DNA of 64,000 nt from Phycisphaerae bacterium (GTDB taxonomy: Bacteria > Planctomycetota > Phycisphaerae > Sedimentisphaerales > SM23-30): positions 26,800 through 90,799 of the forward strand of contig JAEIOG010000003.1 of the NCBI GenBank assembly GCA_016342495.1, in the 5' to 3' direction. Numbering within the stretch: the stretch's first letter is position 1; each line of letters begins with the position of its first letter. The notes under the pieces were generated by a model. The model ran no database searches. It worked only from the letters and a program-made list of their open reading frames with translations, and was not told the origin of the DNA. Below, piece after piece: positions 5,643 through 37,988 of the stretch. Made by a program: the position numbers and the translations under genes.

Positions 5643-6560
5643 TCACACTTTTTTCTTCTTATCTTCTTCTGGCTTAGGTAAATCTTTAATAGAATTTAAT
5701 CCAAATATTTCCAAAAACTTTCGCGTTGTCCCATACAGCAATGGCCTGCCAAGCTCTTCTGCCCGGCCCGTAATCTTAACCATACCTTTATCAACTAACT
5801 GCCTGATCATTTCACCAGCTGCCACGCCACGAATTCTTTCGATATCAACACGCATTATCGGTTGCTTATAGGCAATAATCGCCAGGGTTTCCATACCCGC
5901 CGGGGTCAGCTTCGTTTCACTGCGTACTTTTACCAGTTTGCTCAACCACGGATTATAAGCCGATAGCGTCAGCAGCTGATAGCCGCCAGCTATTTGCTCA
6001 ACGCGAAAAACCCGTCCCGATTTCTCATATTCTTCGTTGAGATTAGCTATGCACTGTTTAACTTTTCTGACATCACCAACACCTAAAATCTCCACCAGCT
6101 TTCTGGCCGGCACCGCTTCATCGGCGGCAAAAAGAACCGCCTCAACCACCGAACTGATAGTAATGCCCTCTTCAAGTTCATCGGGCAGTTCTTCGACCTC
6201 GACTTTTTCAGCATCTGATTTTGATTCCAAATCGGCCTGATTGTCCTGCTCCGGCTCAACTTCACCAGTTAATTCCGGGCTGTTTGCCGAACTGGCTGGC
6301 TCAACTTCGGTATCGACAACCTCATTTTCCGGCTGTTCGAGGGCATCTTGCCCTTTTTCTACCGTTTCCAACGCAACTTGCAACTCCTGGGCTTCCATTG
6401 GAGCTTCTAAATCGAGGTCCTTAGCCTGCTCCACTTCAATATCCTGAGATTCTTCCAGCTGCGCTGGCTGGGCTCCAGCTGGGGCTTCAATGGCATCATC
6501 TACTCTAAGTTCTTGATCACCAACAACTTGCGCATCTTTTTGTTCATTTTCGTTTGTCAT
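5643..6560 (-). CDS. scpB: Segregation and condensation protein B with a long acidic N-terminal extension
   Basis: C-terminal half: SSVVEAVLFAADEAVPARKLVEIL...RVEQIAGGYQLLT...LTPAGMETLAIIAYKQPIMRVDIERIRGV...ITGRAEELGRPLLYGTTRKFLEIFGL. Confidence 0.92.
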   Translation of the reverse strand: MTNENEQKDAQVVGDQELRVDDAIEAPAGAQPAQLEESQDIEVEQAKDLDLEAPMEAQELQVALETVEKGQDALEQPENEVVDTEVEPASSANSPELTGEVEPEQDNQADLESKSDAEKVEVEELPDELEEGITISSVVEAVLFAADEAVPARKLVEILGVGDVRKVKQCIANLNEEYEKSGRVFRVEQIAGGYQLLTLSAYNPWLSKLVKVRSETKLTPAGMETLAIIAYKQPIMRVDIERIRGVAAGEMIRQLVDKGMVKITGRAEELGRPLLYGTTRKFLEIFGLNSIKDLPKPEEDKKKKV

Positions 6561-6985
6561 AAATATTTATATGCTTAGACTGTAACTTTGGCACAAATAT
6601 GCCATAAAGACTTATTATAGAGGCATTTAAACGCTAAACCTCCAAAACAATCGGTATTATCTACTATTTACGCGACAATTTCAAAGAAAATATACCTCCT
6701 AATAAATAATGCCCTCAACAAAAGCTACGACAAACTAAATCGCATAAGAATTACCTGCTCAAGTTCACCTATAAACTACCTCTTCGGCCAGGTGCTAAGC
6801 CTGCGGCCCCCTCGCTCAAGTCCACTTAGAAACCACCGCTTCCGCTGGGCGATGCCCCCGGCTGCACCATATCATGCGGGGTTTAGATGTTTATGAATGA
6901 GTTATCATGCCGGAATGAATTTATTGACACTTGTTCCGCCCGTTCGACATCCAGCTCGCCCGCCGGACATCCAGCCCGAAGTGAA

Positions 6986-7216
6986 TTTACAATGGTCTAT
7001 TGTAAGTTTACAATGCTCTGATGTGAATTTACATTGGTCTAGATAAAGTTTACATTGGTCTATTGTAAATTTACATTGGTTTAGATAAAGTTTACATCAG
7101 AGCAGATAAAGTTTACAATGGAGCAAATCAAATTTACATCAGAGTAATGTAAGCTTACAATGGACCAATGTAAATTTACATCAGAGCAATGTAAATTCAC
7201 ATTTGGCCTCTGCAGA
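6986..7216. repeat. Array of 11 contiguous 21-bp inverted-repeat units, consensus TTTACA-N9-TGTAAA
   Basis: Units start every 21 bp at 6986, 7007, 7028, 7049, 7070, 7091, 7112, 7133, 7154, 7175 and 7196; each starts with (T/C)T(T/C)ACA; adjoining units create TGTAAATTTACA palindromes; a decayed twelfth unit may follow. Confidence 0.9.
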
Positions 7217-7704: not shown

Positions 7705-7889
7705 GCTTGAATTGGTATGAAAGTACGAAAGTGCCAAGGTGTGAAAGACAGTTTTAATACTTTCATGCTTTCGCACCTTTTACCTCTTAACTTTTGTCAC
7801 GGGCGACCGGCCCACTTATTTGAATGAGTCATCACGCTGGAATAAATTCCATAATATCTAGCCCGCCTGACAATCAGCCAAGCAGGATA

Positions 7890-7952
7890 AGCATCTTGCT
7901 TGTCATTATATTCCAGTTTGGTGGCAATGAAACCAATGTCAAGCAAGATGCT
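7890..7952. repeat. Inverted repeat AGCATCTTGCTTG(t/a)CATT, 18-bp arms with one mismatch
   Basis: Arms 7890-7907 and 7935-7952 are reverse complements except one base. Confidence 0.8.
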
Positions 7953-8093
7953 CGACCTACTTAATAACATTTGCCTTCCGCTTATGACATCCAGCCCGAT
8001 GCAGGCGGCAACGACGCCGGAAAAATTCACCGACCAGTGATCCTTATGTTATTTGTGTGCAGGTTCAACCTGCCTTCTTTGAATGTTTCTTTT

Positions 8094-8158
8094 AACGCAA
8101 GAGCCGCTAAAGACGCTATGGCTTTATATCCCATTGCGACTATTGCGGCTCTTGCGTT
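8094..8158. repeat. MITE-like hairpin, 14-bp perfect terminal inverted repeats
   Basis: AACGCAAGAGCCGC (8094-8107) and GCGGCTCTTGCGTT (8145-8158), with further partial complementarity inside. Confidence 0.8.
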
Positions 8159-8178
8159 TGAATAATTCCTGTTTTATT

Positions 8179-11100
8179 TTACTCCTGCCAATGCAATATC
8201 GGATAGCCGCCAGCGGGGGGCATTTGCCAGATATCTTCGCTGCCATTGGCGGTTTCACCGAGGAAATCCCAGCCGGCGTTGAGGTAGGTTTCTATATTCT
8301 GCATCGCTGCGGTGTCTAAGCCGGTGCCGCCATCGCTGGTGGATTGACCGGAAGTTTCGGTGTCCCAGAAGCATGCTGTAATTGTTATACTGTCATTATT
8401 ATCGCCGCATAAGCCGCCCAGATAATCATTAGCATTAACTGCACCGCTGGCATAGCAATTGATTAGACTGCCATTGCTGAGATATCCGCATAAGCCGCCA
8501 ACAAAATAATCACCACTGACTGTGCCAATTGCATAACTATTTGACATGCTGCTAGTGGCAAAATTACCACATAAACCGCCAAGATAATAATAGCCATTTA
8601 CGTTACAGCTGGCATAACACGCGGTGATCCCTGCATCTGAAATGCCTCCGCATAAACCACCAAGATATTTATAACCACTGATCGCTCCGCTGGTATAACA
8701 ATTAGTTACACTGCCATTGCTGAGCTTTCCGCATAAGCCGCCAAGATACCGTGAGCCAGATCCGCCAGTGATATTGGCTATTATACCCAGATTTTCAATT
8801 TTGGCGGTTGGCCCTGATATGCTGCCAAACAAACCCAGATAATCATTGCCTGCTCCAGCGGTGTCAATTGTCAGATTGCTGATAATATGGCCATCGCCAT
8901 TGAAAACGCCGCTAAAGGATATGCCAGCAAATGTGTCTGTTGAATTATCTGTGTCTCTGGCGATGATTGCATTGTCAAAAGTATAGCCGGCCAGATCAAT
9001 ATCAGCTGTAAGGATGAAATGCTTATCCAGCAGCGTGACATCGGTGCCGATAGAGATCAGTTGCCCGGCGGTGCTAACTTGATAAGGATCAGCTGTGGTG
9101 CCCAGACCAGCAAATGGCTTTGTAACTTTTTTATTCATCCAGCATTCCAGTAATTGCTGGAGGTCAGCAATGTTAATCTGGCCATCAGTAATTAAATCTA
9201 TTTCTTTGCCTGGATGATTTGGGTCGCTACAATCTGTTAACCAGTATTCACTCAGTAAGGCAAATTCTTCCAGATTCACACTATTAATAACATTTAGAAT
9301 AATTGCTACTGTTTTGTCTTCCAGTATGCCATTAATTTCTTTGATTGCTAAAACAGTTGAATTGTATCCAAAATCTAGAAGGCTCACATCTATTATTGCT
9401 GTTACTGTTGTCTGGTCATTGGGATCACTGGAAACACCATTATCAGGTGATACCGAAATGATCCATGGGCAATCATAAACTATTTCCCAATCCAGAATAT
9501 TTCCACCTTCATTAAAAATTTTAAAACTAATGGTCTCTTGGACGCTGGCATCGGAAATATCTAAAACAAAATTTTGTTGTGACAGGCCGATGCCCGGTGT
9601 CTTACCTAAACTGATAATCATATCAACAGCATCGCCGCGTTTGGCATAAGTATTAGCTGATGGGCTTTGACTCATAATTGCCCCAGATGGAATTGTTGGG
9701 CTGTAGCCATAGGAAATCTCGCCTACAACTAGTTCGGCATCGGCGATAGCAGTTCTCGCCTGTACTTGTATCATTGATAAAATTTCAGGGACAATTGTTT
9801 CATAAATATAAAAACTGAAAGGAACTTCTACATCTGCTAAAATGCCATCGACATCGCTGATAATTAAAAAATCTTCATAACCGCCAGTTTCCAGCATGCT
9901 GATATCAAATGTTGCCGTGACAGTTGTCCGGTCCGCAGGATTAAGCGAGCTGCCTGATTCTGGTGTGATTATTACATCTAAGGAAGATGGACCTGATACC
10001 TGCCAGTTTAAGGCATTCTCCCCTGCATTAAATACTTCAAAACTGAGAATTAATGTTGCGGTGGTATCGGGCATATCAGGGTCATAGACCAGATTCCCAA
10101 AGCCAATTGCCGGTGACTGGCCTAAGCTCACAACTATATTTATTGCATCGCCAGTTTCAGCAAAACTACCAAATGGGTTTTGGCTTATAACCAGACCGCT
10201 GGCAATATCTTCACTGTAAGCATAAGAAATATCACCAACAATCAAACCAGAGTTGACAATGGTTGCTTCAGCCTGAGCCTGGGTCATGAAAATTACATTT
10301 GGAATCATTATAATATCAAGATTCTGCCAACGCAAAATTGGATAGTCGTCAATCGGCATGTACCAGATATCAGCAGTGCCGTTTATCGACAAACCTGCAA
10401 AGTCCCAGCCAGCATCAAGATAGGTGCTTATGTTTTGCATTTGAGCGGTTGTTAAACCAATGCCACCTGCACTGGTTGTTGTACCTGAAATTTCAGTATC
10501 CCAAAAGCAATTATTTATGATACCCGTTATATCAACAAAATGCTCAATGTACGGGCCTTGATACCACAGGTAGTCACGTTGTTCAAAAGTTCGAGTCAGA
10601 TTATCTCGACAAATTCCATTAGATACGATTCCAGAAGCATAGCAGTTTTCAATGATACCTATATCATTGATTTCACATATTCCGCAAGAAGCAATACAGT
10701 TCGTGTAGCAGTCATTTATAATTCCACCACTACCTACATCAATGCTGTAAGCATAAAAATACCCGATTTTCCGATACTCAGTAAGTTTTCTTTTATTGTA
10801 ACCACAAATGCCGCCGGAGCTATCGCCTGACATATTACCTGTTACAAAAGATTGATGAATTTCACCGCAATTATAACCACAAATGCCGCCGATATATTCT
10901 GAATTTTTTCCGGAAATAATATTAACATTTTCCAGACCGAGATTCTTTATAACAGCATCATAACCGGTTTTGCCAAATAAACCCAGATAGCTATTATTTG
11001 GATCTGCATTAGCTGTGCAAATAGTGAGATTTTGGATAATATAACCATTACCGTTGAAAGTTCCATCAAAATCATACCCCTGATGACCATCAGAGAAACT

Positions 11101-12894
11101 GTCAGTATCTGGAACAATGACAGCGGTGGCGAAAGTATAATCTGCTAAATCAATGTCGGTATTCAAAATAAAACATCTATTTAATACTCTTTGATTTGAG
11201 CCGATGGCTATCAACTGCTTAGCTGAAGAAATCTGATATGGATTAACTGAAGAACCATCACCTCCATCAAACTTATGAAGGTAAACCGTGACAATTTGGT
11301 CATCAGCGATTCCATCAATATCACTGATTACTAAATCTGTCACGAAATCCCCAAATTCTGCTTGAGAGGAATCAATTGTTACATTAACAATACATATGTC
11401 ATTAGGATCAACATCGCTAACTGTCTCAGGAGAAATAGCAACTATCCAGGGGCACTCATAGGAAATCTGCCAATCGAGCAAATTTCCGCCAGAATTATAA
11501 ACTTCAAAGCTAAATGTTTGAAGTTCGGCATCGTTTGTAGATAAAAATTCAATTTCTTCCTGAGAAATACCAATTGATGGGGCTTGCCCTAAGCTGATAA
11601 CCAGATCGATAGCTATTCCAGTCGAATCCACAGGCCCATAAATACTTTGTTGGATTACAAATCCCGAATTAATTGTAGAATTATATTTAAAAGTAATATC
11701 ACCAATAGTAAAACCAGCATTGATTAAAGTAGTTTGGGCATCGGTTTTTTCCATTGCTACAACAACTGGCGGGTAAAAAGCATCGAAGTCCTGCCATGCA
11801 AGTGCAGGGTATCCATCCATTATCCATATATCTTCTGATCCATTGGTAGTTTCATTAACAAAATCCCAATTTACATCCAGAAAAGTATTGATGTCTTGCA
11901 TTTGGACTGTACTACGCCCTAACCAGTCCCCCAAACTTCCATCTAATCGAGCTGTATCCATATCCCAAAAACCGTTAATAGATTGACTACTATATGATTC
12001 CCCAAAAACACCACCTATTTCAATTGAATCCCTACCTGCCTGAACATAACCGGCCGAATAATAATTAGCAATAGTACCACGATAGAAATAACCACAAAAA
12101 CCACCAATTTCACTAGAATCAATGCCCGCAATGACAGTTGCTTGCGAATAGCAATTATCTATAGTGCATAATCTAGAATCTCCACAAAATCCGCCAATTC
12201 CACTTGAACCATCATTGCCAATCACTGTTCCTTTTGAATAGCAACAATCTACATTAGTATACTGCTTATAACCAAACAGGCAGCCAATGTACTGATTACC
12301 AATGACATTACAGCTTGCATAGCACTTGCTTATATTGTTTTCTCTACTACTTCCACATAGCCCTCCTACACTCAGCCTTCCTTTTACATTACCAATTACA
12401 AAACAATTATATGCAGCAGTATATTTTATATATCCACATAAACCACCAACATAATAAGAATCATCTCCTCCCACAATATTTACACTTTTTAAGCCAAGAT
12501 TTTTGATTTCTGAACCCTCGCCTTCACAATGACCAAATAAACCCAGATAGTCATTATTTGTCTGCGAGGCATCAATAATTAAATTTGAAATAGAATGGCC
12601 ATTACCATTAAATATACCGCTAAAACTTGTTCCTTGGAAACCATAATCTGTCGAGGGATCCGGGGCAATAACCGCCTTATCAAAAATATAACCCAAAAAA
12701 TCAATATCAGCAGTCAGAATGAAATGCTTATCATAATCTGCTATAGTCTGGCCCAGATTTATCAGGTCGGCGGCGGTTGCTATCTGGTAGGGATCCGCTT
12801 CGCTGCCGTTACCGCCATCAAAAGCGGTGGCTGTAGCGGAAAAAACGACTAGCAATGTTGAAATAGCTAAACCCAGCGACAATATTCTTCTCAT
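8179..12894 (-). CDS. Giant secreted GLUG-repeat protein with PASTA-like, BACON/Ig-like and internal dockerin-like modules (paralog 1)
   Basis: Signal peptide MRRILSLGLAISTLLVVFSATATA (likely start 12894; ORF extends to 12933); many GLUG units (YLGGLCG...NCYASG); PASTA-like segments (MTQAQAEATIVNSGLIVGDISYAYSEDIASGLVISQNPFG); dockerin-like SVNLEEFALLSEYWLTDCSDPN...DGQINIADLQQLLECWM. Confidence 0.85.
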   Translation of the reverse strand: MRRILSLGLAISTLLVVFSATATAFDGGNGSEADPYQIATAADLINLGQTIADYDKHFILTADIDFLGYIFDKAVIAPDPSTDYGFQGTSFSGIFNGNGHSISNLIIDASQTNNDYLGLFGHCEGEGSEIKNLGLKSVNIVGGDDSYYVGGLCGYIKYTAAYNCFVIGNVKGRLSVGGLCGSSRENNISKCYASCNVIGNQYIGCLFGYKQYTNVDCCYSKGTVIGNDGSSGIGGFCGDSRLCTIDNCYSQATVIAGIDSSEIGGFCGYFYRGTIANYYSAGYVQAGRDSIEIGGVFGESYSSQSINGFWDMDTARLDGSLGDWLGRSTVQMQDINTFLDVNWDFVNETTNGSEDIWIMDGYPALAWQDFDAFYPPVVVAMEKTDAQTTLINAGFTIGDITFKYNSTINSGFVIQQSIYGPVDSTGIAIDLVISLGQAPSIGISQEEIEFLSTNDAELQTFSFEVYNSGGNLLDWQISYECPWIVAISPETVSDVDPNDICIVNVTIDSSQAEFGDFVTDLVISDIDGIADDQIVTVYLHKFDGGDGSSVNPYQISSAKQLIAIGSNQRVLNRCFILNTDIDLADYTFATAVIVPDTDSFSDGHQGYDFDGTFNGNGYIIQNLTICTANADPNNSYLGLFGKTGYDAVIKNLGLENVNIISGKNSEYIGGICGYNCGEIHQSFVTGNMSGDSSGGICGYNKRKLTEYRKIGYFYAYSIDVGSGGIINDCYTNCIASCGICEINDIGIIENCYASGIVSNGICRDNLTRTFEQRDYLWYQGPYIEHFVDITGIINNCFWDTEISGTTTSAGGIGLTTAQMQNISTYLDAGWDFAGLSINGTADIWYMPIDDYPILRWQNLDIIMIPNVIFMTQAQAEATIVNSGLIVGDISYAYSEDIASGLVISQNPFGSFAETGDAINIVVSLGQSPAIGFGNLVYDPDMPDTTATLILSFEVFNAGENALNWQVSGPSSLDVIITPESGSSLNPADRTTVTATFDISMLETGGYEDFLIISDVDGILADVEVPFSFYIYETIVPEILSMIQVQARTAIADAELVVGEISYGYSPTIPSGAIMSQSPSANTYAKRGDAVDMIISLGKTPGIGLSQQNFVLDISDASVQETISFKIFNEGGNILDWEIVYDCPWIISVSPDNGVSSDPNDQTTVTAIIDVSLLDFGYNSTVLAIKEINGILEDKTVAIILNVINSVNLEEFALLSEYWLTDCSDPNHPGKEIDLITDGQINIADLQQLLECWMNKKVTKPFAGLGTTADPYQVSTAGQLISIGTDVTLLDKHFILTADIDLAGYTFDNAIIARDTDNSTDTFAGISFSGVFNGDGHIISNLTIDTAGAGNDYLGLFGSISGPTAKIENLGIIANITGGSGSRYLGGLCGKLSNGSVTNCYTSGAISGYKYLGGLCGGISDAGITACYASCNVNGYYYLGGLCGNFATSSMSNSYAIGTVSGDYFVGGLCGYLSNGSLINCYASGAVNANDYLGGLCGDNNDSITITACFWDTETSGQSTSDGGTGLDTAAMQNIETYLNAGWDFLGETANGSEDIWQMPPAGGYPILHWQE

Positions 12895-13026
12895 AACAAT
12901 TCTCCTGTTAAATCTGGCCCCCAAACTTACCATATAAGTACTGTACCCTTTTAGCTACCGTTTTTCAAGGAAAAAGTAAGTTTATTAAGTCTTTTTTGCT
13001 CATAAGGATATTATTGCCAATTAAAG

Positions 13027-36629: not shown

Positions 36630-37988
36630 ATGAAAACTATGTTAAAAACAGCTTTGATGACCATGATAGTAACAGCCATCAGTCAAACAGGTGTATTTGC
36701 CCAGCAAGGACCTGATCCTATGGGAAATGGGCCTGCTTTTGAACGAGGCCAGGGCATGGGACGTGGTCCTATGATGCAACGCGGGCAACAAGGACCAGGA
36801 CAACGTCAGGGTATGCGAGGCCAAGGTCGTAATCAGGGCCAAAAACAAGGAATGCAACGTGGCATGGGCATGGGACGCGGTCCTATGATGACCCAACGCG
36901 GACAGCAAGGACCAGGACAACGTCAGGGTATGCTAGGTCAAGGTCGCAATCAAGGCCAAAAACAAGAAATGCAACGTGGTATGGGCATGGGACGCGGTCC
37001 TATGATGACCCAACGCGGGCAACAAGGACCAGGACAACGTCAGGGTATGCGAGGCCAAGGTCGTAATCAGGGCCAGAAACAAGGAATGCAACGTGGTATG
37101 GGCATGGGACGTGGTCCTATGATGATGCAACGCGGGCAACAAGGACCAGGACAAGGCCAGGGTATGCGAGGTCAAGGCCGCAACCAGGGTCAGAAACAAG
37201 GAATGCAACGTGGCATGGGCATGGGACGTGGTCCTATGATGATGCAACGCGGGCAGCAAGGGCCCGGACAAGGTCAGGGTATGCGAGGTCAAGGTCGCAA
37301 TCAAGGCCAGAAACAAGGAATGCAACGTGGCATGGGTATGGGACGTGGTCCTATGATGATGCAACGCGGACAGCAAGGACCAGGACAAGGTCAGGGTATG
37401 CGAGGTCAAGGCCGCAACCAGGGTCAGAAACAAGGAATGCAACGTGGCATGGGCATGGCACGCGGTCCTATGATGATGCAGCGTGGACAGCAAGGACTCG
37501 GACAAGGCCAGAGTATGCGTGGTCAAGGTCGTAATCAGGGCCAGAAACAAGGAATGCAACGTGGCATGGGTATGGGACGTGGTCCTATGATGATGCAACG
37601 CGGACAGCAAGGACCAGGACAAGGTCAGGGTATGCGAGGTCAAGGCCGCAACCAGGGTCAGAAACAAGGAATGCAACGTGGCATGGGCATGGCACGCGGT
37701 CCTATGATGATGCAGCGTGGACAGCAAGGACTCGGACAAGGCCAGAGTATGCGTGGTCAAGGTCGTAATCAGGGCCAGAAACAAGGAATGCAACGTGGCA
37801 TGGGCATGGGACGCGGTCCTATGATGATGCAACGCGGACAGCAAGGACTCGGACAAGGTCAGGGTATGCGTGGCCAAGGTCGCAATCAAGGCCAGAAACA
37901 AGGAATGCAACGTGGTATGGGTATGGGACGTGGTCCTATGATGATGCAACGCGGACAGCAAGGACCAGGATTCGGAAGAAATCGTTAA
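36630..37988 (+). CDS. Secreted Gly/Gln/Met/Arg-rich tandem-repeat protein
   Basis: Signal peptide MKTMLKTALMTMIVTAISQTGVFAQ; repeats of GMGRGPMMMQRGQQGPGQGQGMRGQGRNQGQKQGMQRGM; RBS aaaggag. Confidence 0.85.
   Translation: MKTMLKTALMTMIVTAISQTGVFAQQGPDPMGNGPAFERGQGMGRGPMMQRGQQGPGQRQGMRGQGRNQGQKQGMQRGMGMGRGPMMTQRGQQGPGQRQGMLGQGRNQGQKQEMQRGMGMGRGPMMTQRGQQGPGQRQGMRGQGRNQGQKQGMQRGMGMGRGPMMMQRGQQGPGQGQGMRGQGRNQGQKQGMQRGMGMGRGPMMMQRGQQGPGQGQGMRGQGRNQGQKQGMQRGMGMGRGPMMMQRGQQGPGQGQGMRGQGRNQGQKQGMQRGMGMARGPMMMQRGQQGLGQGQSMRGQGRNQGQKQGMQRGMGMGRGPMMMQRGQQGPGQGQGMRGQGRNQGQKQGMQRGMGMARGPMMMQRGQQGLGQGQSMRGQGRNQGQKQGMQRGMGMGRGPMMMQRGQQGLGQGQGMRGQGRNQGQKQGMQRGMGMGRGPMMMQRGQQGPGFGRNR
36750..37973 (+). repeat. 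117-bp (39-aa) in-frame tandem repeat, about 11 copies
   Basis: GGTCCTATGATG landmark at 36765, 36879, 36996, 37113, 37230 ... 37932; spacing 114 bp once, otherwise 117 bp. Confidence 0.95.

Follow-up and report, generated by a model that had tools for sequence, protein, structure and literature searches.

A strict 21-bp array of dyad-symmetric units in a Phycisphaerae genome and a candidate class of helically phased non-coding arrays upstream of fibronectin type III genes

The parS/omega-repressor system of plasmid pSM19035 consists of plasmid arrays of a conserved heptad with a period of 7, which are accompanied by parA/parB and have a dimeric reader. The repeat units of type III toxin-antitoxin systems are longer than the 21-bp unit of the array analysed here, which lies in a stretch of 64,000 nucleotides (the window) on contig JAEIOG010000003.1 of a Phycisphaerae bacterium. 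This array and its relatives are similar to the pSM19035 heptads in being adjoining, phased short repeats upstream of genes (PMC9499535). An operator and an architectural role are possible for both. The arrays differ in their period (20-21 bp instead of 7), in arms that change between loci, and in a partner gene that has no match in the plasmid collection. A plasmid centromere or iteron array is not what we found, given that the partner protein is absent from phage and plasmid collections and that the arrays sit on large chromosomal contigs. The exact repeat pattern was not found in viral contigs either, and on these grounds we rejected a virus or plasmid origin of the arrays. The type III toxin-antitoxin systems ToxIN, CptIN and TenpIN (PMC5086642) likewise have a non-coding tandem array directly 5' of a small protein gene. 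Their toxin is an endoribonuclease, whereas the partner of the arrays models as helices plus a fibronectin type III (FN3) domain and the signal is at the DNA level; no endoribonuclease of the ToxN, CptN or TenpN type was found downstream, where Pfam recognises fn3 only.

REP/BIME elements are dispersed intergenic palindromic repeats with a GTAG/CGTC tag (PMC3733652). The arrays are palindromic as well, but REP/BIME elements do not form strict 21-bp arrays and their partner gene is other than FN3; in our search for a REP/BIME element with its RAYT, neither the GTAG/CGTC tag nor a Y1 transposase was found, the arms being YTTRCA/TGYAAR and the only recurrent partner the FN3 protein. Short palindromic arms around variable cores of 9-11 bp also give the arrays the look of a miniature CRISPR repeat-spacer array. 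However, their period is much shorter, their cores are mutually related variants and not acquired spacers, and the partner is not a Cas protein, with no credible PADLOC match. Iteron and multi-site operator arrays, as well as curved promoter-upstream DNA, likewise have sites about two helical turns apart; unlike these, the present arrays are chromosomal and can number tens of loci in a single genome, and from one paralogue to another their sequence is exchanged although the architecture is kept. We found no description of such arrays in the open-licence literature, and the class is apparently undescribed, although an earlier description elsewhere is possible.

The window array occupies positions 6986-7216 (no strand assigned) and is the sole match of a phased-array scanner in the 64-kb window; in shuffled loci totalling 741 kb the scanner found none. 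The preliminary description of this DNA had claimed an unbroken run of eleven units, each exactly 21 bp long, with the form TTTACA-N9-TGTAAA, and both claims stood. The eleven units adjoin one another without any indel, and the pattern is matched at 110 of the 132 arm positions; among 2000 base shuffles, the highest count in any phase was 57. Tandem Repeats Finder reported the region with periods of 21, 42 and 63. The unit is dyad-symmetric (p<0.005), and its arms belong to the type YTTRCAWY-N5-RWTGYAAR. The core inversion in the middle of the array, also part of that description, is real: units 1-5 (6986-7090, no strand assigned) carry cores of the TTGGTCTAT / TTGCTCTGA type in one orientation and units 6-10 (7091-7195, no strand assigned) carry the reverse complement (ATGGACCAA / TCAGAGCAA type), with no exception. 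This core switch is partly present in a paralogous array on contig C139, and it is not general among related arrays. The palindrome said to form where units adjoin was borne out in part, the perfect form TGTAAATTTACA being present at junctions 4/5 and 9/10 and at no other. Right arms are eroded in units 3, 5 and 6 (ATAAAG) and 7 (ATCAAA), and unit 11 (7196-7216) is degenerate. We define the array class by at least 8 adjoining units of 20-21 bp with a dyad-symmetric and non-coding unit, and the window array has all of these properties.

The nearest gene start is that of an scpB-like gene (Pfam SMC_ScpB; 5643-6560, minus strand), with the array about 425 bp upstream. On the other side lies a giant gene (8179-12933, minus strand) in which GLUG, PASTA and BACON_2 domains were recognised; its 3' end faces the array, which is about 1 kb beyond it. 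The right part of the array (7067-7216, no strand assigned) is identical at 140 of 150 bases to the C139 array, which has 14 units (12382-12675); the right parts are thus 93% identical and the left parts are different. A paralogue of the giant gene adjoins the C139 array in the same relative place as in the window, and the window array may have been copied along with the downstream region of the giant gene. A downstream FN3-family gene is frequent in the class and not obligatory, and neither such a gene nor a remnant of one was found near the window array. The array is hence an orphan of the TTRCA arm type, gene-linked members of which are on C13 and C80, and it could be a remnant or could act on scpB. 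Around the array, at 6890-6980 and 7808-8160, there are other dispersed repeats between genes (CGCCCGACATCCAGCCCGATGCAGGCGGCAACGACGCCGG; AACGCAAGAGCCGCTAAAGACGC), which also occur at many further loci of the genome. Elsewhere in the window, at 36752-37970, there is a G/Q-rich 117-bp tandem repeat (10.4 copies, 90% matches), which is probably coding.

TTTACA-N9-TGTAAA arrays were also searched for in this genome and in related ones, which for the most part are metagenome-assembled. With up to 3 mismatches, a two-unit pattern was matched in the window's genome at 32 places per strand, versus 7 and 14 for a reversed control. Besides the C139 paralogue, arrays with the arms of the window array and unrelated cores are on C108, C143, C205, C13, C58 and C80, and a related but more divergent one is on C11; the genome count of arrays of any sequence is a lower bound. 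Among 161 genomes of the order, 23 had the two-unit pattern with up to 1 mismatch, and none of the genomes listed had the reversed control. Across 85,462 species, the exact pattern was found in 20 stretches, most of them with several phased units, from Planctomycetota, Acidobacteria, Methylococcaceae, Bacteroidetes, Pseudodesulfovibrio, Geomonas, Hormoscilla, Sumerlaeota and Spirochaetia. The array is therefore neither unique nor absent from all relatives, being one member of a large class that crosses phylum boundaries. The units have the consensus YTTRCAWY-N5-RWTGYAAR, with less variation between units in the arms than in the cores. In the window's genome, arm types are common to gene-linked and gene-less arrays (C180 with C213, C133 with C55, and the TTRCA set). 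Since the gene just downstream of the arrays on C55 and C213 encodes a leucine-rich-repeat protein, arrays are not confined to FN3 genes. These 21-bp arrays (L302 on C55 and L303 on C213) lie directly 5' of genes that are lipoprotein-like, and such genes constitute a second gene family with arrays of this kind.

Comparison of flanks showed that a shared open reading frame of about 200 amino acids adjoins arrays in different phyla. It has a helical N-terminus and a C-terminal FN3 domain (Pfam fn3) as its sole recognisable domain, and we obtained no clear assignment in NCBIfam, PHROGs or PADLOC. An AlphaFold2 model (pLDDT 87.5, pTM 0.49) has a helix at 8-24, a long helix at 36-88 and the FN3 domain, and fold searches with it returned only FN3 domains, including the PDB matches. 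Of 159 genomes of the order, 90 contain the family. The window's genome has 12 matches, and a 3-Mb Phycisphaeraceae genome (G167, metagenome-assembled) has 28, many of which have their own distinct array.

The array lies on the 5' side of the FN3-family gene, which points away from it; L102 is an exception, being a tandem gene pair with an array also behind one of the two genes. We assessed this association on 56 gene copies picked without regard to arrays, with strong 20/21-bp periodicity within 900 bp counted as positive. Upstream 34 of 56 copies were positive, versus 3 of 55 downstream (p=2e-10), and the positives came from several phyla; the best lag in the range from 12 to 40 was 21 in 30 of 33 positives. 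On the window contig, 1453 windows were taken at random, and none reached the periodicity threshold. About 40% of the gene copies had no detectable array at the thresholds used. The link also holds in Bacteroidetes, Methylococcaceae, a cyanobacterium (Hormoscilla) and a spirochaete (Spirochaetia), and no other recurrent neighbour gene was found. Arrays lie at very different distances from the start codon, from about 50 to 870 bp.

While their position is shared, the arrays of different gene copies are built from unrelated units (CATAATGAAG, CAATTTCAAG, ACTTTTGTCTCTAGTCGACTG and others). The period nevertheless stays at 21, or at 20 and about 20.67 (three units in 62 bp) among some of the Methylococcaceae, and these periods fit two turns of B-DNA and not codons. 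No 10/11-bp half-period repeat was seen inside the unit, where the signal was below background. Dyad symmetry of the unit reached p<0.05 for 35 of the 47 gene-linked arrays and for 13 of the 15 without the gene. The gene-less set and part of the gene-linked set were found by a palindromic motif, so the fairest evidence comes from the gene-selected loci L174-L192 and L255-L291. Some arrays have no dyad symmetry. Homologous arrays evolve roughly as fast as their surroundings and differ mainly by whole units (21, 42 or about 61-62 bp), with the exception of L190/L191, which have smaller gaps. In two paralogous Bacteroidetes loci (L065/L290), sequences on both sides are 88-90% identical and the arrays between them are unrelated in sequence and of the same design. 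In the window's genome, the 5' flank shared by L176 and L177 stops 6 bp short of two different arrays. Arm type does not track the protein tree, an idea that we rejected because the close paralogues L176, L177, L178, L180 and L050 each have a different array.

Changes of array length by whole units and differences in unit sequence between loci are also what would be expected of a selfish or neutral minisatellite, in which functionless 21-bp palindromic units are amplified by slippage or recombination and gather in AT-rich 5' intergenic regions. Some motif matches (L069, L070 and L055) may indeed be ordinary minisatellites, since they are near-identical repeats and their genomes have no or only weak matches to the gene family. 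Against this reading, the period is nearly always 21 across unrelated sequences and phyla, the units are strongly diverged yet in phase, the arms are more conserved than the cores, most arrays are dyad-symmetric, and the association with one gene family is strong and one-sided. We consider such an origin unlikely for the class as a whole. A sequence-independent effect on DNA shape is less likely still. There, a two-turn repeat would sum bends into a curved or supercoil-absorbing segment whose sequence drifts freely, which agrees with a period that is kept while sequence is not and with the phased A-tracts of some AT-rich arrays (L284, L286 and L289). However, such a segment does not require the dyad symmetry observed, A-tracts are absent from GC-rich arrays, and neither arm conservation within an array nor the arms common to arrays of one genome would be explained.

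The preliminary description also offered a decayed peptide-coding segment as a possible role, with a reading frame for the heptapeptide VNLHWSx. A unit of 21 bp is divisible by three and one or two frames are open in some arrays, but this frame is interrupted in the window array, and all six of its frames contain stops (3-12 per frame), so that no open reading frame runs through it. In addition, no frame of 24 gene-linked arrays had fewer stops than column shuffles, the Methylococcaceae periods of 20 and about 20.67 bp do not suit codons, and the DNA is dyad-symmetric. We ruled out a coding heptapeptide on the basis of the stops and the 20-bp periods, and a decayed coding repeat has almost no probability left in our judgement.

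A structured RNA or DNA element was another role suggested at that stage. As RNA, the window array would fold into a long hairpin of -96 kcal/mol (z=-10.3, and also z=-8.3), and the C139 array folds with z=-8.4; a strong fold is expected because the units are palindromic. C139 also has core pairs TGTATCA/TGATACA in opposite halves, a hint of long-range pairing that a permutation test did not generalise. These folds, together with the order of array and then gene, would suit a transcribed array as the active molecule, either a long hairpin leader or a repeat RNA that precedes a protein gene, in the manner of type III toxin-antitoxin systems. Several results speak against it. There was no covariation on the symmetry axis over 62 arrays (z=-0.98 for gene-linked and +0.83 for orphan or gene-less arrays), which led us to reject local hairpins kept by compensatory change. 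The real unit order folded hardly better than permuted orders (mean z -0.20 and -0.35, with the window and C139 arrays at the favourable end), and a general long hairpin through mirrored unit order was rejected on this test. Neither strand folded consistently better, and the modelled protein, helix plus FN3, is not a ToxN-like RNase. Rfam matches (MIR2630 and others) were to plant and animal miRNA models far under the gathering score (56.6 vs 144 bits), and we rejected them as artefacts of AT-rich hairpins. The window copy taken alone would fold as described, but a structured RNA is not supported as a general property of the arrays, and an active RNA seems quite improbable to us. The lack of compensatory change, the small effect of unit order, the lack of strand preference and the undepleted stops together point to double-stranded DNA as the active form.

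Of the three roles originally proposed, a phased operator or nucleoid-protein array fits best, given the period of two helical turns, the dyad-symmetric units, the non-coding and strand-symmetric character, the position upstream of genes, and the gain and loss of whole units. We give about an even chance to the reading that the window array is a member, without the usual partner gene, of a class of helically phased non-coding arrays whose units are putative sites for dimeric proteins. A typical member has about 8-16 adjoining dyad-symmetric units, 20-21 bp apart, in the 5' region of a gene, and this gene most often encodes a protein of about 200 amino acids with two N-terminal helices and an FN3 domain. 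Each unit would be a pair of half-sites for a two-fold symmetric DNA-binding protein. Such dimers may line up next to one another along a single helix face, with neighbours touching, and may then regulate or organise the promoter region close by. Where arrays of one genome have their arms in common (for TTRCA, those of the window, C139, C143, C205, C58, C108, C13 and C80), they would answer to one factor. The FN3 protein itself is an unlikely reader of the arms, because copies about 90% identical sit behind unrelated arrays and because its N-terminal half is slightly acidic, the whole protein being about neutral. It may instead be the regulated product, or a partner that does not read sequence. 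The widely varying distance from array to start codon is odd for a simple operator, and the gene copies without a detectable array (about 40%) and the arrays without dyad symmetry also count against the operator reading.

More tentatively, and with somewhat less than an even chance, the arrays and the FN3-family genes may form a cross-phylum two-part locus, in which a hypervariable array of fixed architecture accompanies a helical-plus-FN3 gene. The array would be exchanged wholesale while flanks and gene stay, which would make it a DNA platform that is labelled by type and has the arms as an address subject to renewal. A genome may hold up to 28 FN3-family genes, and gene-less arrays of the same arm type are found elsewhere in the genome; if this proposal is true, the arrays would resemble a large set of private operators or of sites similar to centromeres. 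Here the geometry of a DNA element (two helical turns and two-fold symmetry) is kept while its sequence is free, and the element is linked across several phyla to a single family of small proteins. This makes it possible to test directly for selection that acts on the spacing and symmetry of DNA instead of on sequence. It also suggests a likely role in promoter architecture for many proteins so far described only as hypothetical or FN3-containing.

Some minor observations concern the FN3-family genes. Their 3' end (the last ~34 codons and the stop) recurs as fragments of about 105 bp (L099, L105, L153-L172 and L181), some of them with in-frame stops; on the left they end sharply near profile position 165-170. 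In several cases, a sigma70-like promoter comes right before the fragment and an unrelated gene, with its Shine-Dalgarno sequence and start codon, comes after it, an arrangement that looks like reuse of the gene end as a leader. In L056 (1062-2535), a PIN-domain (VapC-like) gene and a small antitoxin-like ORF lie between an intact FN3-family gene and its duplicated 3' end, which looks like a cassette insertion with the gene end restored. In L061 (Pseudodesulfovibrio) and L175 (the window's genome), the gene after the FN3-family gene encodes a putative methyl-accepting chemotaxis protein; L061 also has a cheW-like ORF, and the 5' flanks of the two loci are 68.6% alike over 156 bp.
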